This document shows, one piece after another, positions 1 through 15,717 of a stretch of 64,000 bases of DNA. This stretch comes from Lactobacillus johnsonii (GTDB taxonomy: Bacteria > Bacillota > Bacilli > Lactobacillales > Lactobacillaceae): contig NZ_CP059055.1 of NCBI RefSeq assembly GCF_014058685.1, positions 620,001 through 684,000 on the forward strand. The letters are read 5' to 3'. Under the pieces are notes generated by a model. That model was not told where the DNA came from and did no database searches. It worked only from the letters and a program-made list of their open reading frames with translations. Both the position numbers and the translations under genes were made by a program. The stretch's first letter is position 1. Every line of letters begins with the position of its first letter.

Positions 1-1188
1 AAAAAGCAAGACGTGAGTTGAGCCACCAAAGTGAAACATGCCTAATTGGTCTCCTTTATTAACATGTTGACCTACCCGAACGGTAATCTCATCACTAGAT
101 ACTTCGGACATTCCGACTGCAATAAAGGCCATTAAACCAATTTTAGGATTATCAGCTTGAATAAAAATGACAGCTCGTGTTGCTGTTGAAGTAAGAAAGG
201 CTTGCGAATCGTTAGCAGCTGCCGGGTCGGCACCTCTAGGATTTTCGAATCCTTGATATAAACTCTCTGCATAATAAGTGCCTGGTAAATTATATGCTTT
301 GACAATTTTTCCGGAGACAGGACTGTTCCATCTATGATAACTTAGAGCACTTAAAAATGCTTGATATAATGTACCTCCTTCAAATTTGGAAGCCCATGGA
401 TCTCCATCAAGTAGATCAACTAGAGAGTAAGGTTGACCTTTAATCCAAAATTTAGCTTTTAGGGGAAGATTGTGAGCGATGCGAAATGGGGCAGATTCAC
501 AAGCATTAGCAATAGAATCAGCATCATCAGCATTTTGAACAGGACGTACTCCAGGATTAAAAGTTCGGGTAAAAAATTTATCCCATGAAGTAAATCCTAA
601 ATGTTTAGTTTTATCATGATTAGGACAATTAAAGATGTTAAAGAAGTCGTCTCCGTAGGCAACTTTTGACATTTCATTTAGTGCATAGTCACTTAGCCAT
701 CCAGTTTCAGAAGTGTTAAGAACATATGTAGAATCTGCCGTTTGAAGGAACTTTCCCCAATAGTCTAGAATGTTTTTCAAACAAGCATTAACTTTTGGAT
801 TATTGAAAAAGACATAGCCTGCTTTCGTAGCCATAGGGTAATCAAAGATAGCATTAATTGGTGTTCCTACTAATCCAGTTTTATTAAATTCTGGTGCTCT
901 TTGGATAATGCGATTAAGCATTAAAAGCATTTGCTGATAGGTCCGGACTTGCGGAGTACCAGTCGGAGTATCGACATCATTTACTGGAATTTCTGCGAAC
1001 ATTAATTGAGTAATATTGTAAATATATCTATCAGATTCTATTAAATGTTTAAGGGCTTGAACTGGTGGTAAGAGATATTGATTTTCTTCACTTTCTGCTT
1101 CTTTTAAAACTTTTCCAAGCCATTGATTAAAAAATTTTTGATCAGTTGGTAACCATTTACCAACATTATATGGGATTGTTTTTGACAT
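1..1188 (-). CDS. Phosphatidylserine decarboxylase-like / PsiD-like amino-acid decarboxylase, 3' end cut by window edge
   Basis: This reading frame begins at an ATG (complement 1186-1188) after a good AGAGGTG ribosome site and stays open to base 1, giving 396 codons without the C-terminus. The second half carries the phosphatidylserine decarboxylase signature: YHRWNSPV (residues 284-291) and GMFHFGGST, where Ser390 of GGST should be the self-cleavage site that makes the pyruvoyl cofactor. There is no membrane segment. The long N-terminal part (roughly residues 30-190) matches the PSDC-type extension found in soluble family members. From memory, the layout and several stretches (ACES, YHRW, PGTY, GQHVN, GMFHFGGS) resemble the fungal L-tryptophan decarboxylase PsiD more than membrane Psd. 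The enzyme may therefore decarboxylate a free amino acid; that is inference. The family assignment is firm, the substrate is not. Confidence 0.85.
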   Translation of the reverse strand, partial: MSKTIPYNVGKWLPTDQKFFNQWLGKVLKEAESEENQYLLPPVQALKHLIESDRYIYNITQLMFAEIPVNDVDTPTGTPQVRTYQQMLLMLNRIIQRAPEFNKTGLVGTPINAIFDYPMATKAGYVFFNNPKVNACLKNILDYWGKFLQTADSTYVLNTSETGWLSDYALNEMSKVAYGDDFFNIFNCPNHDKTKHLGFTSWDKFFTRTFNPGVRPVQNADDADSIANACESAPFRIAHNLPLKAKFWIKGQPYSLVDLLDGDPWASKFEGGTLYQAFLSALSYHRWNSPVSGKIVKAYNLPGTYYAESLYQGFENPRGADPAAANDSQAFLTSTATRAVIFIQADNPKIGLMAFIAVGMSEVSSDEITVRVGQHVNKGDQLGMFHFGGSTHVLLF

Positions 1189-1265
1189 AATCTAGCACCT
1201 CTATAAAAATACTCTTTCAAATTAAAACTAGTGCTACTTTAGTTTGAAGTCAAAGAAAGTGCATT

Positions 1266-5309: not shown

Positions 5310-6548
5310 ATGGATACAATGGTTAAGCACAGACATACTCTAAGCAAAAATCAGAAGTGGGTTATTGCATCTACTTCATCAGGTTTTGCGCTTGAGAATA
5401 TGGATGTGCTTTTTTTATCGTTTGCAATGAGTTCGATGATTGCTGATCTTCACTTGTCAGGTGGGGAGGCTGGTTTTATTTCAACGATTACTAATTTAGG
5501 AATGTTAGTTGGTGGAATCGCCTTTGGAATTTTAGGTGATAAGATTGGTCGAGTTAAAACTTTTAGCCATACAGTAATTATTTTTGCAATTGCGACAGCT
5601 TTGATGGCATTTGCCAATAATATTTATCTTATCTATGCCCTTCGGTTTTTAGCAGGAATTGGAGCAGGTGGAGAATATGGTGTTGGAATTGCTTTAATTG
5701 CTGAGAACTTTCATAAAGAACAAATTGGTAAAATGACCTCAGTAGCAGCGATTGGTGGCCAAATTGGAGCAATTTTAGCGGCTTTAATTGCAGCTTGGAT
5801 TATTCCAGCAGCAGGTTGGCATATGCTATTTTTAGTAGGGATTCTTCCAGTAATTTTAACCATCTTCATTAGAAAACACGTCCATGAAAGTGAACAATTT
5901 ATTAGGGTTCAAGCTAGTGAAAGTAATTCTTTATTATCGGATGTCGCTAAAAAAATGTTTTCAACACTACATCTTGCTTGGCAAACCGTGGGTCTAATGA
6001 TTATGATGACAGTTCAAATTGCTGGATACTTTGGTTTAATGAACTGGCTTCCCACAATTGTGCAAAAGCAATTGAATTTAAATGTTTCAAATTCTAGTCT
6101 TTGGATGATTTCTACGATTATTGGAATGAGCATTGGTATGATGACATTTGGCTCAATTTTTGACTACTTTGGCCCGAGAAGAGCCTTTGCAATTTTCTTA
6201 ATTGGTTCAGCTTTAATGGTTTATACATTAAGTTTGGCCCAAAATATGACCATGCTCTTGATTATTGGAGCTGTAGTTGGCTTTTTCTCAAATGGGATGT
6301 TTGGTGGCTATGGCGCTGTAATCAGTAGATTATATCCAACAGAAATTCGGTCGAGTGCCAATAATATTATTGTTAATGTCGGCAGAGCAATCGGTGGATT
6401 TTCATCAGTAGTAATAGGTATTTTAATGGATAAATATAACTTAGGCGTAGTAATGGGCTTTTTATCAGCTTTATACTTACTTAGCTTTGTTGTGATGATT
6501 ACTTTACCAGGCTTAAAAACTTTAACAAAAGAAGCTAAAAGAAACTAA
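5310..6548 (+). CDS. MFS transporter (sugar/organic-acid:proton symporter type)
   Basis: A 412-residue protein with 12 predicted membrane segments. It has the MFS loop motif GDKIGR between segments 2 and 3 (about residues 70-78) and RFLAGIGAGGEYG in segment 4, as in the aromatic-acid/sialate/niacin branch of the superfamily. I place the start at ATG 5310, eight bases after GGAGG; an in-frame TTG at 5295 has no ribosome site. The gap to pepD is short, with a small hairpin (GAATG...CATTC near 5275-5294) but no clear terminator, so the two may be cotranscribed. The substrate cannot be told from the sequence. Confidence 0.85.
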   Translation: MDTMVKHRHTLSKNQKWVIASTSSGFALENMDVLFLSFAMSSMIADLHLSGGEAGFISTITNLGMLVGGIAFGILGDKIGRVKTFSHTVIIFAIATALMAFANNIYLIYALRFLAGIGAGGEYGVGIALIAENFHKEQIGKMTSVAAIGGQIGAILAALIAAWIIPAAGWHMLFLVGILPVILTIFIRKHVHESEQFIRVQASESNSLLSDVAKKMFSTLHLAWQTVGLMIMMTVQIAGYFGLMNWLPTIVQKQLNLNVSNSSLWMISTIIGMSIGMMTFGSIFDYFGPRRAFAIFLIGSALMVYTLSLAQNMTMLLIIGAVVGFFSNGMFGGYGAVISRLYPTEIRSSANNIIVNVGRAIGGFSSVVIGILMDKYNLGVVMGFLSALYLLSFVVMITLPGLKTLTKEAKRN

Positions 6549-6588
6549 ATATAGCTTTTAACGATGGGAAACTAGTAAGAATAAATAT

Positions 6589-6617
6589 TTTTCAATTGAT
6601 AATTGTCCTTGTATACT
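6589..6617 (+). promoter_or_regulatory. Promoter of the DUF915 lipoprotein gene
   Basis: TTTTCA (6589-6594), 17-bp spacer, TATACT (6612-6617). The -10 is good and the -35 fair. Confidence 0.5.
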
Positions 6618-6647
6618 GGAGAAAAGTAAGTGTGAGAGGAAATAATT

Positions 6648-7502
6648 ATGAAGAAGAAAAAGATTTATCTTGCTAGTTTTTTTATTGCATTATTTTTATT
6701 TGTGTTAGCGGGATGTGGTCAAAAAGCTCAAAATATTCCTGCTAAAAGGGTTACTGTATCTTTAACCAATACTAAAACAATTCCCACATTTTTCTTTCAT
6801 GGTTGGGGGTCAAGTGCAAATGCGGAGACCCAAATGGCGAATGCCGCAAAAAAGGCTGGTGTAAGTAATACAATTATTCAAGCAGATGTAAGTAAAAATG
6901 GCACTGTTAAACTTAAAGGCACGATCCCAAAAAATGCAAAAAATCCAATTATCAAAGTTAATCTAGAAGATAATCAGAGTGGAAAAACATCATATGTAAA
7001 AGATGTAATAACTGCAATCTCTAATAAATATCATTATGCAAAGATTAATTTAGTTGGTCATTCAATGGGAAATCTACAAATTGCTAACTACATTAATGAA
7101 AACTATGACAATAAAAAATTGCCTAAGATTAATAAAGTAGTTTCAATTGCAGGGCATTACGATGGCTATCTTGGTGAAGAAGCTGGCCAAAAGGCTAAGA
7201 TCAAAAATAAGAAAACAGGTGAACCGGATATTTATAATGATGGTTTTAAGCAATTATTACCTTTACGGAAACACTATCCGAGACAAATTGAGGTCTTAAA
7301 TATCTATGGTAATAAAGAGGACGGTTCAAATTCTGACGGATCAGTTTCTGTAGCCTCAGCACAAAGTTATAAATATTTAATTAATGGCCGTGCCAAATCA
7401 TACCGTGAAGTAGAAATTAAGGGTAAGAATGCACAACATAGCAAATTACACGAAAATAAAGAAGTTGATAAACTTTTAATTAATTTTTTATGGAAAGAAT
7501 AA
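6648..7502 (+). CDS. Secreted alpha/beta-hydrolase lipoprotein, DUF915 family
   Basis: A 284-residue protein with a signal peptide ending in the lipobox LAGC (Cys23), so it should be lipid-anchored outside the membrane. The body is an alpha/beta hydrolase: FFHGWGSS near residue 49 for the oxyanion region, LVGHSMGN with the nucleophile Ser139, and a late QHSKLHEN that may supply the catalytic His. This pattern and length fit the DUF915 cell-surface hydrolases of lactobacilli, whose substrates are mostly unknown. It is a single gene with its own promoter. The next promoter begins within 15 bases of the stop codon, and the palindrome at 7521-7569 may also act as its terminator. Confidence 0.82.
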   Translation: MKKKKIYLASFFIALFLFVLAGCGQKAQNIPAKRVTVSLTNTKTIPTFFFHGWGSSANAETQMANAAKKAGVSNTIIQADVSKNGTVKLKGTIPKNAKNPIIKVNLEDNQSGKTSYVKDVITAISNKYHYAKINLVGHSMGNLQIANYINENYDNKKLPKINKVVSIAGHYDGYLGEEAGQKAKIKNKKTGEPDIYNDGFKQLLPLRKHYPRQIEVLNIYGNKEDGSNSDGSVSVASAQSYKYLINGRAKSYREVEIKGKNAQHSKLHENKEVDKLLINFLWKE

Positions 7503-7512
7503 TAAAAAGTTA

Positions 7513-7569
7513 TTGACAATAGTCTCTGTGGATACTAATATAGTTAATTAATTAGTATCTACAGAGACT
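7513..7569 (+). promoter_or_regulatory. Promoter with a 19-bp-arm operator for the MarR regulator
   Basis: TTGACA (7513-7518), 17-bp spacer, TAATAT (7536-7541). AGTCTCTGTGGATACTAAT (7521-7539) and ATTAGTATCTACAGAGACT (7551-7569) form an inverted repeat with one mismatch. The left arm covers the spacer and the start of the -10, so a bound repressor would block RNA polymerase. TTTTT follows the right arm, so the same hairpin could also stop transcripts from upstream. Confidence 0.85.
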
Positions 7570-7587
7570 ATTTTTGTGAGGTGAAGT

Positions 7588-8025
7588 ATGGAATTAACTG
7601 CTACCGAAAAGTTGAATTTTGCAATTATCCGAGGTGGAAAAGCTTATGCAGAGTGGGATAGACAACATGGCATGCCAAGTTATCTAACCATTATTTTGTA
7701 TGAACTATTAATGCGCCAAAGATTAACGCAAAAAGATCTGGTCAACTTAAGTGACTTACCAAAGCAATCTATTAATAAAGGAATTCACCGCTTACTAGAA
7801 CAAGATTATCTAGAACTGACAATTGATCCAGAAGATAATCGGGTTAAGTATTGCCAGCTAACTGCTTCAGGGAAAAAATACGCTAAAAAGAAAATGACTC
7901 CTTTATTTGAAATTGAAAAGCAAATTGCACAAAAAATGGGCGCACAAAAGATGGAACAGTTAGTGGCTCTAAATGAAGAGTGGAGTGATACCTTTTGGGA
8001 GCTTTTAAGAAAGAAGGGAGAATAA
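7588..8025 (+). CDS. MarR-family transcriptional regulator
   Basis: A 145-residue winged-helix protein. RLTQKDLVNLSDLPKQSINKGIHRLLEQDYLEL (about residues 50-82) is the helix-turn-helix, and DPEDNRVKYCQLTASGKK (about 84-101) is the wing, as in MarR/SlyA proteins. It is the first gene of an operon with two ABC exporter genes (gap of 3 bases to the next) and lies directly after a large palindromic operator, so autoregulation and control of the exporter by a ligand, perhaps an antibiotic or bile acid, are likely. The ligand is unknown. Confidence 0.9.
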   Translation: MELTATEKLNFAIIRGGKAYAEWDRQHGMPSYLTIILYELLMRQRLTQKDLVNLSDLPKQSINKGIHRLLEQDYLELTIDPEDNRVKYCQLTASGKKYAKKKMTPLFEIEKQIAQKMGAQKMEQLVALNEEWSDTFWELLRKKGE

Positions 8026-11577: not shown

Positions 11578-12399
11578 GTGAAGAGAAAGCTACGATTCTT
11601 TTCTTTATTTGTTGTCTTATTTAGCGTTTTTTTACTTTCGGCATGTCAAAAAAATACTCGTAACGTCTACCAAGAAGTTAAAAAAAGTGATGAAATTACT
11701 TGGGGTGTTAAGGCGGATACCCGTTTATTTGGTTTAATGAGTATTAAAACCGGAAAAATTGAAGGTTTTGAAGTTGATTTAGCAAATGCTTTAACTAAGG
11801 AAATACTAGGAAAAAATGCTAAGGCAAACTTTGTACAAACTACTGCAAAAACAAAAATTCCACTTTTGAAAAATGGAAATATTGATGCAGTTTTAGCGGC
11901 AATGACGATTACGCCAGAACGCAAAAAGCAAATTGATTTTAGCGATCCATATTTTTATGCTGGACAATCACTTCTTGTAAAAGATGATTCAACAATCAAG
12001 AGCATTAAAGATATGAATGGTAAAACTGCATTAGCTGTAAAAGGTACAACAGCAGTTGCCAATGTTAAAAAATTTGCACCTAAGGCTAAAGTATTAGAAT
12101 TTGATGATTATGGTCAAGCATTTACTGCGCTTAAAGCCGGTCAAGGTCAAGCCATGACTACTGATAATGGTTTGCTTGCCGGAATTGCAACAGAAAACAA
12201 GGGCTATAAACTTGTAGGGGGCACCTATACTAAGGAACCCTATGGAATTGCTGTCAATAAAGGACAGACACAAATGAAAAATGCAATTAATCGTGCACTA
12301 GTAAAATTAAAAAAAGATGGGACGTATGATGCCTTGGTAAAGAAGTGGTTTAGCGGTATTCCGGGCTTTAATATTAAAGAGGCCGAAGGTGAAAAATAA
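11578..12399 (+). CDS. Amino-acid ABC transporter substrate-binding lipoprotein, copy 1
   Basis: A 273-residue lipoprotein (lipobox LSAC, Cys23) of solute-binding family 3. ITWGVKADTRLFGLM, IEGFEVDLA, AMTITPERK and AVKGTT are the usual ligand-binding landmarks for polar amino acids. The start is GTG 11578 with GGGGGAAAG upstream. It is very similar to the protein at 13594-14418, so one arose by duplication. It stands apart from the permease operon, before the T-box, so it would not be under the same amino-acid control. It follows a strong terminator without an obvious promoter, so its expression may depend on read-through. Asp, Glu or Gln is the most likely ligand. Confidence 0.88.
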   Translation: MKRKLRFFSLFVVLFSVFLLSACQKNTRNVYQEVKKSDEITWGVKADTRLFGLMSIKTGKIEGFEVDLANALTKEILGKNAKANFVQTTAKTKIPLLKNGNIDAVLAAMTITPERKKQIDFSDPYFYAGQSLLVKDDSTIKSIKDMNGKTALAVKGTTAVANVKKFAPKAKVLEFDDYGQAFTALKAGQGQAMTTDNGLLAGIATENKGYKLVGGTYTKEPYGIAVNKGQTQMKNAINRALVKLKKDGTYDALVKKWFSGIPGFNIKEAEGEK

Positions 12400-12465
12400 A
12401 ATTTTTACTTGCCTTTTTTGAAAAAATATTATTAAATGTAATCAACATTTAAATTTAAAAAGCGA

Positions 12466-12730
12466 TAAAAAGAAAAGTAGGTAATCTATTTCTTTTAGTG
12501 AGTTAACGGTAGTGGAAAAGTTAGCAGACCCTGGATTATTGAAAGACACTTTTATAATGCTGCTGGCCGAAATCTTTTAAGAGAGTAAGTTTAGCCGTAA
12601 GCGGTACGTTATCTAGCCGCTGGAGCATGGTTGTGCTCTAGTCAAGTTGGTCTTTAATTAGACAATTTAGGTGGTACCGCGGAAAAAAGCCTTTCGTCCT
12701 GAGTAATTTAGGAGCGAAGGGCTTTTTTTC
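12466..12730 (+). promoter_or_regulatory. T-box riboswitch leader (probably aspartate-specific)
   Basis: The conserved T-box AGGTGGTACCGCGG lies at 12669-12682. It is followed by a terminator (AGCCTTTCGTCCT at 12688-12700 with AGGAGCGAAGGGCT at 12710-12723, then T7). Stem I can be drawn: AAAAG (12473-12477) pairs with CTTTT (12549-12553), and GGTAATC (12480-12486) with GATTATT (12534-12540). The 3' side of the specifier loop is then GAAAGACA (12541-12548). Read with the usual following A, the specifier is GAC (Asp, 12545-12547). Uncharged tRNA would favour readthrough into the transporter operon. The bulge triplet TGGT pairs best with an A discriminator, whereas bacterial tRNA-Asp usually has G, so the specificity needs checking. 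Confidence 0.9.
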
Positions 12731-12842
12731 TTTGCTCCAATCAGGAAATAAAGGGGTATGCAACAGATATAACTACAGAAGTTAATTTTAAGAAGTTTTA
12801 GAGTAGAATGGAAAAGTGAGTAAAAAAGAGAGGGGAAGCACA

Positions 12843-13592
12843 ATGGCTGCAATTATTGATTTTAAGCATGTAAATAAGTACTATGGTAAGTTCCATGCTT
12901 TAAAGGATATTAATTTGAGTATTGAAGAGGGTCAAGTTGTTTCAATTATCGGCCCGTCTGGTTCTGGTAAGAGTACTTTGATTCGTACAATGAATGGATT
13001 AGAGCGAATTAATTCTGGTACTTTGATGGTTACTGGCTATGATTTGGCAGATAAGCATACGGATTTAAATAAAATTCGTAAGAATGTGGGAATGGTTTTC
13101 CAACATTTTAACTTATACGACAACCACACTGTGCTTGAAAATATAACTTTAGCTCCTAAGATTGTTTTGCATAGACCAGATAAGGAAAATAATGATATTG
13201 CCATGGATCTTCTAAAAAAAGTTGGTCTTGAAGAAAAGGCAAATATGTATCCAAGACAATTGTCTGGTGGACAAAAGCAACGTGTTGCAATTGCTCGTTC
13301 ATTAGCTATGAGACCAAAGGCAATTTTGTTTGATGAACCAACTAGTGCTCTTGATCCAGAAATGATTCAAGATGTGTTAGATGTTATGAAATACGTAGCA
13401 GATCAAGGAATTACAATGGTTGTTGTAACTCACGAAATGGGATTTGCTCGTGAAGTTGGGGACAGATTAATTTTCTTTGATCAAGGTAGAATTTTAGAGG
13501 ATGAAAAACCAGAAGAATTCTTTGCACATCCTAAGACTGAACGTGCACGTCAATTTTTAAGTAAGGTTATTACTGAAAAGCTAGGTGGCTAA
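12843..13592 (+). CDS. Polar amino-acid ABC transporter ATP-binding protein
   Basis: A 249-residue ATPase: Walker [11 protein letters not shown]-loop VFQHFNLY, signature [10 protein letters not shown], Walker [13 protein letters not shown], switch THEMG. The last motif is typical of GlnQ/HisP-type amino-acid importers. The start is ATG 12843 after GAGAGGGGAAG; an in-frame GTG upstream is unsupported. It is the first gene of a four-gene operon behind the T-box, followed by the binding protein and two permeases, which makes a complete importer. Confidence 0.93.
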
Positions 13593-13593
13593 A

Positions 13594-14418
13594 ATGAAAA
13601 AATCAACTAAGATTTTTATTTTGCCTCTGGTACTAGCTTTATTAGTTACTTTGACCGGCTGTGCCAAGAAGCAGAAATCAAGTAATGTTTATGATCAGGT
13701 TAAAGAGAGTAAGACAATTACTTGGGGAGTTAAGGCTGATACTCGTTTATTTGGTTTAATGAGTATTAAAACTGGAAAAATCGAAGGCTTTGAAGTTGAT
13801 TTAGCAAAGGCCTTAACTAAGCAAATGTTGGGCAAAGACGCAAAAGCTGAATTTGTACAAACAACTCCCAAAACAAGAATACCGTTATTAAAAAATGGAA
13901 ATATTGATGCAATTTTAGCAACAATGACTATTACGCCTGATCGAAAAAAACAAGTAACTTTTAGTGAACCATATTTTACTGCTGGACAATCACTACTTGT
14001 AAAAGATGATTCTTCAATCAAAAATGTTAGAGACTTGAATGGTAAAACTGCCTTAGCTGTTAAAGGAACAACAGCAGTTGATAATGTTAAGAAGTTTGCG
14101 CCTAAAGCAAAAGTTTTGGAATATGATGATTATGGTCAAGCATTTACTGCATTAAAAGCTGGTCAAGGACAAGCAATGACTACCGATAACGGATTACTTG
14201 CCGGTATTGCTAGTGAAAATAAAGGTTATAAATTAGTAGGGGGAACTTACACAAGTGAACCTTACGGTATTGCGGTAGAAAAAGGTCAAACTGATTTTGC
14301 TGATCATATTAATAAGGCACTAAATGAATTAAAGAAAAATGGAACGTATCATCGTCTATTAGTTAAATGGTTTGACGGTATTCCAGGATTTAATATTAAG
14401 GAGGTTGAAAATTCGTGA
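13594..14418 (+). CDS. Amino-acid ABC transporter substrate-binding lipoprotein, copy 2
   Basis: A 274-residue lipoprotein (lipobox LTGC, Cys23). Ligand landmarks are the same as in copy 1 at 11578 (TWGVKADTRLFGLM, IEGFEVDLA, TMTITPDRK, KGTTAV, YGIAVEKGQT), and most residues match. The start is ATG 13594, preceded by AGGTGG at the end of the ATPase gene; the GTG at 13585 lies in that ribosome site. It overlaps the first permease by 4 bases (GTGA). Being inside the T-box operon, it should be the copy induced on amino-acid starvation. Confidence 0.9.
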   Translation: MKKSTKIFILPLVLALLVTLTGCAKKQKSSNVYDQVKESKTITWGVKADTRLFGLMSIKTGKIEGFEVDLAKALTKQMLGKDAKAEFVQTTPKTRIPLLKNGNIDAILATMTITPDRKKQVTFSEPYFTAGQSLLVKDDSSIKNVRDLNGKTALAVKGTTAVDNVKKFAPKAKVLEYDDYGQAFTALKAGQGQAMTTDNGLLAGIASENKGYKLVGGTYTSEPYGIAVEKGQTDFADHINKALNELKKNGTYHRLLVKWFDGIPGFNIKEVENS

Positions 14419-15053
14419 TAGGAATTTTAACAAATCATTGGTCTGAATTCTTATCAGGCTTTTGGAACACAATTTTATGTAGTGTAATTGCCCTATTCTT
14501 TAGTTTGATCCTTGGGGTAGGTTTTGCTTTGTTAGAAGTTGCACCAAATAAGTTTGGTAGAGCAGTAGCACATGTCTACATTGAAATTTTCCGTAACATT
14601 CCTTTGTTAGTTATTACAATGATCTTTTATCTGGTTGTACCTCAAATTTGGTTCAAGGTATCTGGATTTGCAGCAGGTACAATTGGATTAACATTATATA
14701 CTTCAGCATTTATTGCAGAAACAGTTAGAGCGGGAATTAACTCAGTTGGTGATGGTCAAATGGAAGGTGCCCGCTCAAATGGGATGACTTATACGCAAGC
14801 TATGCGGTATGTTATCTTGCCACAAGCTTTAAAGATTGTCATTCCGCCATTAGGTAACCAGTTCATTAACTTAATTAAGAACTCATCTGTTTTAGCCTTT
14901 GTAGCAGGTTTTGATTTGATGTATCAAGCAGACGTAATTGCATTCTCATCATTTGAAACAATCAATACTTATGTTGTTGTAGGGTTATTTTACTTAGTAC
15001 TAACCCTCCCATTAAGTTACTACATGCGTCACTTAGAAAAGAAATTAGCCTAG
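14415..15053 (+). CDS. Polar amino-acid ABC transporter permease 1
   Basis: A 212-residue permease of the HisM/GlnP family with about five membrane segments. It has the EAA loop: GQMEGARSNGMTYTQAMRYVILPQALKIVIPPLGN (about residues 114-148), which docks onto the ATPase. The GTG start overlaps the stop of the binding-protein gene, with AAGGAGG upstream. Confidence 0.92.
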   Translation: MIGILTNHWSEFLSGFWNTILCSVIALFFSLILGVGFALLEVAPNKFGRAVAHVYIEIFRNIPLLVITMIFYLVVPQIWFKVSGFAAGTIGLTLYTSAFIAETVRAGINSVGDGQMEGARSNGMTYTQAMRYVILPQALKIVIPPLGNQFINLIKNSSVLAFVAGFDLMYQADVIAFSSFETINTYVVVGLFYLVLTLPLSYYMRHLEKKLA

Positions 15054-15066
15054 GAAGGAGAAAAAG

Positions 15067-15717
15067 ATGGAAAACTTTATTCATGCATATTCTTGGATTA
15101 ACATTCGCTTTCTCTTACAAGGTTTGTGGGTGACCATATATGTATCTTTGATCTCAATTGCTTTAAGTTTTGTATTAGGACTAGTATTTGGTTTTATCCG
15201 TTACGTGAAAATTAAATATCTTTCAGCAATTGTTGGATTTGTAATTGATATTATTAGAAACCTACCGCTATTGTTAATTATCTTCTTTACGTATTTTGGA
15301 TTACCAGAATTAGGGATTATTACCAATCCAACGGTTGCTTCTATTATTGCCTTGGTAGTATTTGAAGGGGCAATGCTAGCTGAAATTGTGAGAAGTGGGA
15401 TTGCTGCTGTTGATCCAGGCCAAATGGAAGGTGCTCGGTCAAACGGTATGACATATATGCAGGCAATGTATCATGTAATTATTCCGCAAGCCCTCAATAA
15501 GATGATTCCATCACTTTTATCACAATTTGTTTCATTAGTTAAGGATACGTCTTTAGCAACAATTATTGTTTTGCCGGAATTATTATTCCATGCACAAATT
15601 ATTTATAGTCAAAATACTACTTACTTAATTCCAATGTATGTAATTATTGCGATTATGTACTTCATTGTTTGTTTCTCACTTTCAATGGTTGCTAAGCATT
15701 TACAAAGTAAATATTAA
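15067..15717 (+). CDS. Polar amino-acid ABC transporter permease 2
   Basis: A 216-residue permease, homologous to its neighbour, with the EAA loop GQMEGARSNGMTYMQAMYHVIIPQALNKMIPSL. It starts 13 bases after permease 1 behind AAGGAG and completes the membrane heterodimer. A terminator follows. Confidence 0.92.
   Translation: MENFIHAYSWINIRFLLQGLWVTIYVSLISIALSFVLGLVFGFIRYVKIKYLSAIVGFVIDIIRNLPLLLIIFFTYFGLPELGIITNPTVASIIALVVFEGAMLAEIVRSGIAAVDPGQMEGARSNGMTYMQAMYHVIIPQALNKMIPSLLSQFVSLVKDTSLATIIVLPELLFHAQIIYSQNTTYLIPMYVIIAIMYFIVCFSLSMVAKHLQSKY

Follow-up and report, generated by a model that had tools for sequence, protein, structure and literature searches.

A phosphatidylserine decarboxylase-fold protein of Lactobacillus johnsonii as a probable pyruvoyl-dependent arginine decarboxylase

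The question raised by this locus is which substrate is decarboxylated by a Lactobacillus protein that carries the domains of phosphatidylserine decarboxylase (Psd): a membrane lipid, an aromatic amino acid or a basic one. The gene (PSD1) was identified as a PSD-fold pyruvoyl decarboxylase gene on the minus strand at positions 1..1188 of the window, by which we mean the whole stretch of 64,000 nucleotides that was analyzed, from a host genome consisting of a single 1.95-Mb contig. The window holds codons 1-396 of 428, and the last 32 codons lie beyond it (G000:C1:619902-620000). The full ORF (428 codons/aa, G000:C1:619902-621188, minus strand) is uninterrupted, and its first 396 codons agreed with the window-derived part by direct match. 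The ATG start codon occupies 1186-1188 and a likely ribosome-binding site, GAGGTG, was read by eye ahead of it (1196..1201, minus strand); a promoter and terminator scan of the upstream region gave chance-level results. PSD1 is under strong purifying selection, with dN/dS of ~0.03 against its orthologs in two other loci (L003 and L004), at a dS of 1.3, which is near saturation. The nearest named relative, among the best 80 of 82 relatives, was from L. taiwanensis (93% identical), in support of a Lactobacillus host.

Both domains were detected above the Pfam cut-off, namely the PSDC domain (PF12588, 160.4 bits, residues 41-173) and the PS_Dcarbxylase core (PF02666, 128.5 bits, residues 203-418), and no membrane segment was indicated by hydropathy (highest 19-residue Kyte-Doolittle mean = 1.4). 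A preliminary description of this DNA had proposed a soluble, PsiD-like, pyruvoyl-type decarboxylase with a PSDC-type N-terminal extension, not acting as a classic Psd, and each of these points agrees with the results given here and below. The core domain, together with plasmid records in which relatives are called 'phosphatidylserine decarboxylase family protein', would fit a canonical Psd making phosphatidylethanolamine. Against this, all six Psd-type NCBIfam models listed scored below cut-off (bits/cut-off: NF001941, 85/371; NF002853, 78/307; TIGR00163, 55/112; NF003038, 43/285; NF003685, 23/183; TIGR00164, 23/230), the match to E. coli Psd was 24 bits, and the hydropathy profile lacks the membrane segment. 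In the window's genome the one PF01066 CDP-alcohol transferase match was PgsA (167 vs 109 bits cut-off), so a Bacillus-type phosphatidylserine synthase is missing, the phospholipase-D type being outside the search. E. coli Psd (6l06, 7cnw) shares the core fold of the C-terminal domain, but has a shorter chain, aligned at most to residues 112-388 of the PSD1 model, and a membrane lipid as substrate. Model scores, phosphatidylserine supply and hydropathy together speak against a canonical Psd, which was rejected and is considered extremely improbable. PSD1 is very probably a PLP-independent amino-acid decarboxylase, and not a Psd.

The catalytic residues of PSD1 are intact. Self-cleavage is predicted between G389 and S390 in the motif FGGS, with the codon of Ser390, the future pyruvoyl group, at 19..21 (minus strand). 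The codon of His285 was located at 334..336 (minus strand); this residue aligned with a His of E. coli Psd, the first of YHRVH, and we take it to have the role in self-cleavage and catalysis that is known for Psd. The codon of Glu231 (motif ACES) was located at 496..498 (minus strand), the residue being aligned with the Asp of the E. coli Psd motif PADG, whereas PsiD and the Aspergillus oryzae arginine decarboxylase (AoADC) likewise have Glu at this position. All three residues were invariant in 80/80 bacterial rows. For the invariance counts and the tree, four fragments (L072, L076, L078, L079), the query copy (L001) and rows <400 aa were left out. PsiD chain 8x4q_A terminates at the GG equivalent to the PSD1 cleavage motif, and a separate 42-aa AoADC chain (9jer_E) aligned to profile positions 388-424, right past the cleavage site. 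Because the site is conserved and relatives have been solved, PSD1 would be expected to cut itself at G389|S390 to give the pyruvoyl cofactor.

To place PSD1 among solved structures, it was compared with all PDB sequences, and the top matches were 9jer (250 bits) and PsiD (8x4q, 229 bits), with E. coli Psd far below. A 30-row family profile gave the same order (390 bits for 9jer, 346 for PsiD, 51 for E. coli Psd), and the enzyme of an aguAB-linked relative (L013) scored 263 bits against AoADC vs 229 against PsiD. The titles of 9jer and 9jf5 read 'Arginine decarboxylase in Aspergillus oryzae', that of 9jf5 adding 'complexed with arginine', and PsiD is tryptophan-specific according to its PDB title; structures of the PsiD-like fold are thus available for two specificities, tryptophan and arginine. 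The 9jer/9jf5 enzyme is presumably that of Murakami et al. 2024. Like PSD1, AoADC has the PSD fold, is PsiD-like, aligns over its full length and carries the same cleavage motif; it differs in being fungal, whereas some of the bacterial genes are linked to an antiporter gene and in certain cases to aguAB, and at R286 and F387 of PSD1 (the latter beside the cleavage site), which are C and S in AoADC. A PSD-fold arginine decarboxylase is therefore already known, and published, from one fungus; in the accessible part of PMC12283126 the A. oryzae enzyme is counted among the known pyruvoyl arginine decarboxylases, citing Murakami 2024.

The AF2 model of PSD1 (pLDDT 79, pTM 0.81; five stretches below 50, including 247-252 and 307-335) matched PsiD at Z 34.6 and 9jer at Z 33.3, over 327-330 residues, which is a near tie, and E. 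coli Psd at Z 15.9. By sequence and structure PSD1 thus falls with PsiD and not with Psd, the resemblance to PsiD being far above chance, and the motifs that the preliminary description had named are present and shared in the alignment with PsiD. Psilocybe PsiD, the L-tryptophan decarboxylase (8x4q, 8zia), shares with PSD1 the fold, the domain layout, the FGG cleavage site and the E and H residues. That PsiD and AoADC stand almost level in bits, identity (39.2 vs 39.6%, in effect equal) and Z score is one argument for reading PSD1 as an aromatic amino-acid decarboxylase (tryptophan, phenylalanine, tyrosine), that is, a bacterial PsiD making trace amines. PsiD nevertheless has other residues at 18 columns that are conserved in bacteria and match AoADC (at 95% conservation), including N112, W202, W248, Y275 and Q329, against 14 columns of the opposite kind; at other conservation levels the AoADC:PsiD counts were 6:6, 22:23 and 29:26, and 49/80 bacterial rows were nearer AoADC than PsiD. 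Given equal identity and split diagnostic columns, sequence alone does not pick arginine or tryptophan. Residues invariant in the five agu-linked enzymes were kept in PSD1 at 123/131 positions, in AoADC at 90/121 and in PsiD at 81/118, and the same set was matched at 87-99% (median 95%) in 58 other, unlinked bacterial rows. As the unlinked rows match as well as PSD1 does, this points to a uniform bacterial family and names no substrate.

A contig scan of genomes gave 82 relatives, the best 80 of which (79 distinct loci) were used, and neighbors within 4.5 kb were clustered. The commonest neighbor family was one APC antiporter, linked in at least 12/79 loci (best 80 of 82 relatives), a lower bound because some contigs are short. 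The other 67/79 loci, where no antiporter of this kind was linked, count against the arginine reading, with the same proviso of short contigs. All 12 antiporters are on the decarboxylase's strand, with gaps of ≤250 bases along the gene chain. They were found in Lactobacillus (L004, L005, L007, L012), a Veillonellaceae MAG (L013), Klebsiella sp. (L044), a Pantoea plasmid (L046), Edwardsiella (L049), Erwinia (L055), Pseudomonas (L057) and two Endozoicomonas (L065, L069). Family scoring covered 10 of the 12 loci (all except L005 and L007), and eight antiporters were above the cut-off of TIGR00905 (basic-amino-acid/polyamine). The antiporters of L007 and of genome G067, whose contig equals that of L005 in length (30,029 bases), are 95-97% identical to that of L004, which scored 495 bits with the arginine-ornithine model TIGR03810 vs 182 bits with the AdiC model.

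Agmatine deiminase (aguA) adjoins the decarboxylase gene, above NCBIfam cut-off, in the Veillonellaceae MAG, Klebsiella sp. and both Endozoicomonas loci (L013, L044, L065, L069), and N-carbamoylputrescine amidase (aguB) is linked above cut-off in L013, L044 and L057, while in L065 it was recognized just by its BLAST cluster, so that aguA and/or aguB stand beside the gene in 5/79 loci (best 80 of 82 relatives). The L013 genes run antiporter, aguA, aguB, decarboxylase and are separated by 11-29 bases. Among 22 chosen genomes, in which the linked ones were included on purpose, aguA was present in six, as one copy each: the sole copy is the linked one in G360, G361, G366 and G367, and lies elsewhere in G365 and G368. 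By arithmetic for genomes of 2.0-5.6 Mb, the chance of a single-copy gene falling in a random 9-kb neighborhood is ~0.2-0.5%. The G367 locus is an 8-kb contig with a stated coverage of 1.8. SpeA was above cut-off in G361, G365 and G366 and below it in G360 and G367, and G360 has a full-length OKR_DC; the PSD-like enzyme is therefore not the only possible arginine decarboxylase of G360, G361, G365 and G366. In the tree, agu-linked rows were spread over three distinct clades, the starred branches requiring at least 3 label changes, and L013 was sister to all Lactobacillus rows. The tree was built by a quick method; PsiD and AoADC sit on long branches and do not together make up one side of a branch, the root is unsure, and one row (L167_div, branch length 10) is in the wrong frame or otherwise bad.

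Because aguA, aguB and a basic-amino-acid/amine antiporter fit a route from arginine through agmatine and N-carbamoylputrescine to putrescine, and because the top PDB sequence match is AoADC, PSD1 most likely converts arginine to agmatine, as a pyruvoyl-dependent decarboxylase of the PSD fold. Of the preliminary proposal that a PLP-independent decarboxylase makes trace amines, the amino-acid decarboxylase is very likely right, but tryptophan or phenylalanine is no longer the best reading, given the AoADC match and the agmatine/polyamine genes that are the operon partners in three clades. Neighbor logic of this kind has a precedent: in the available part of Li 2023 (PMC10407285), aguA/aguB neighbors predicted arginine decarboxylases among SpeD homologs, and assay confirmed the prediction. 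Those SpeD-derived arginine/ornithine decarboxylases (Li 2023, PMC10407285) are also bacterial pyruvoyl enzymes recognized by aguA/aguB neighbors, but belong to another protein family, AdoMetDC.

The antiporters bear on a further reading, in which PSD1 decarboxylates another basic amino acid (ornithine, lysine or histidine) and feeds a polyamine antiporter. TIGR00905 is a broad group, and two of the linked antiporters (L044 and L057) were above the PotE (putrescine-ornithine) cut-off. However, the aguA and aguB products would have nothing to act on after ornithine or lysine had been decarboxylated, and the window's genome already has an OKR_DC-family decarboxylase (699-aa frame), so we judge this reading to be quite unlikely. 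Several other neighbors were set aside. In Aeromonas, a YfcC-like antiporter (BLAST cluster) and ArgR/PyrB-like ORFs (by eye) lie ~1-5 kb away and are not operonic, and the arginine link was dropped; a YfcC-like gene that immediately follows the decarboxylase gene of L009 stayed below its model's cut-off (292 vs 500 bits) and was left uncounted. In the Aeromonas caviae record H6 the stretch concerned is unannotated. The Plesiomonas and Mycetohabitans plasmid loci showed no arginine or antiporter link, and the other neighbors in L024, L028, L029, L049, L063, L067 and L071 showed no arginine or antiporter function; one neighbor in L071 matched a polyamine-export model weakly, below its cut-off (106 vs 500 bits).

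For the aromatic reading, two gene associations within Lactobacillus were weighed: a divergent paralog stands beside TyrP-like and TyrDC-type genes, and in the window's genome a tyrosine decarboxylase (TyrDC) lies ~9 kb from PSD1. That genome thus already has a dedicated tyrosine decarboxylase, which with the arginine, agmatine and polyamine partners of the three clades and the 18 AoADC-matching columns argues against an aromatic substrate for PSD1. To our knowledge, PsiD has no arginine or agmatine gene link. We regard the aromatic reading as unlikely, and arginine remains the preferred substrate. The divergent paralog (72% to PSD2) was found at L142:3007-6474, L152:8936-12402 and L162:7930-11397, oriented divergently from the TyrP-like/TyrDC-type genes, both of which were below cut-off in L152. 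The tyrosine decarboxylase of the window's genome is at L084:1099-3000 (G000:C1 ~609.1-611.0 kb, outside the window; TIGR03811, 918 vs 905 bits cut-off), next to a TyrP-like antiporter (444 vs 630 bits cut-off) whose gene runs off the locus end. The window's strain may make tyramine through this PLP enzyme.

The pair of antiporter and decarboxylase was also found on plasmids, side by side in Enterobacter cancerogenus and Photobacterium damselae. The E. cancerogenus plasmid pUPC1 (pair at L169:4442-7242) was typed as conjugative and that of P. damselae as non-mobilizable; the typing of pUPC1 makes the pair look mobile. A second, distant PSD-like clade was observed in Mycetohabitans/Burkholderia-type genomes (L173, L166, L168), with plasmid matches at ~36% identity, and the one region of it that was read gave no arginine link.

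Within Lactobacillus, 23/75 genomes had a match, one of them doubtful (G016, 18.9 bits) and two partial or broken (G010, G023). Across 295 genomes of the order, outside the genus, there were only short weak matches (≤59 bits, frames of 254-298 aa). At E 1e-60, one evenly drawn phylum sample gave 4/398 matches (the centre G361, the already known G362 and two divergent ones) and the other 1/398 (the centre G360 itself). The family is thus patchy. The antiporter is adjacent in 8/22 Lactobacillus genomes with a real match.

Gene content was compared at one chromosomal site, between POT/GH42 genes and MarR/MFS or fetAB/M42 genes. L. taiwanensis carries PSD1-PSD2-antiporter-PSD3 there, a second genome of the same species as the window (G059/L007) carries PSD2-antiporter-PSD3, as do G034 and G024, and G069 carries PSD1 alone. 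In G023 (L163) remnants of PSD2 and PSD3 are left and the antiporter is missing, which looks like the outcome of recombination between these paralogs. In the window's strain, PSD1 stands beside an ISL3 transposase gene (L002:7554-8831), just downstream, where relatives have PSD2, the antiporter and PSD3; the ISL3 element is a possible cause of their loss. In the window's genome the partner antiporter was not found (best match 27% identity), nor was an agmatine deiminase, and aguA was likewise absent from the 12 other Lactobacillus genomes searched (of which G043 and G369 are probably one genome). With aguA missing from the lactobacilli searched, the product there would probably be agmatine itself. 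Two other features of the window were noted. A C-terminal remnant of a GH42 beta-galactosidase lies at 1478-1996; at the GH42 site the same-species genome L007 has an untruncated 679-aa ORF (5667-7706) and L004 a 77-aa remnant. At 11578-15717, judging by the ORF list alone, an ATPase gene stands between two closely similar genes for amino-acid ABC-transporter binding proteins (11578-12399 and 13585-14418), and two permease genes follow.

On the arginine reading, PSD1 would convert L-arginine to agmatine and CO2 with consumption of one proton. In some relatives, an arginine(ornithine)/polyamine-type antiporter would import the amino acid and export the amine, and AguA and AguB would convert agmatine to putrescine. 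AdiA/AdiC is an arginine-agmatine acid-resistance system in which a decarboxylase works with an antiporter. Decarboxylase plus antiporter would resemble AdiA/AdiC-type acid resistance and energy gain, and in both cases the decarboxylase gene is paired with that of an APC-family amino acid/amine antiporter, but AdiA is a PLP enzyme and the bacterial PSD-like decarboxylase is of the pyruvoyl type with the PSD fold. As the antiporter is absent from the window's strain, agmatine there would have to be exported in some other way or be used intracellularly.

Among titles and abstract starts of the open literature, no bacterial PSD-like protein was found linked to arginine decarboxylation, and none was linked to tryptamine in Lactobacillus. 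Agmatine is a neuroactive and immunoactive amine. We lean, with some reserve, towards a wider view in which a mobile module for acid resistance and agmatine formation, independent of PLP, is present in bacteria, both in lactobacilli and on plasmids. It would consist of a pyruvoyl arginine decarboxylase of the PSD fold and a dedicated arginine/amine antiporter, and the label 'phosphatidylserine decarboxylase' would have hidden it; PsiD, of the psilocybin pathway, and the arginine decarboxylase of fungi would have branched off from this family, in which the substrate was changed by reshaping one pocket, and agmatine output in Lactobacillus would vary with the paralogs and transporter kept. In the accessible parts of a census from 2025 that covered the amino-acid decarboxylases of human gut bacteria (PMC12484125), the pyruvoyl types are only histidine, aspartate-1 and some arginine decarboxylases, and 'phosphatidylserine' is absent from its main text as far as that was available; surveys can miss PSD-like amino-acid decarboxylases. 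If the arginine reading is true, lactobacilli and other bacteria produce agmatine through a family whose present annotation is that of a lipid enzyme, and the bacterial enzyme, A. oryzae ADC and PsiD would form a natural series in which one pyruvoyl scaffold switches between arginine and tryptophan, useful for enzyme design and for understanding the origin of psilocybin biosynthesis.
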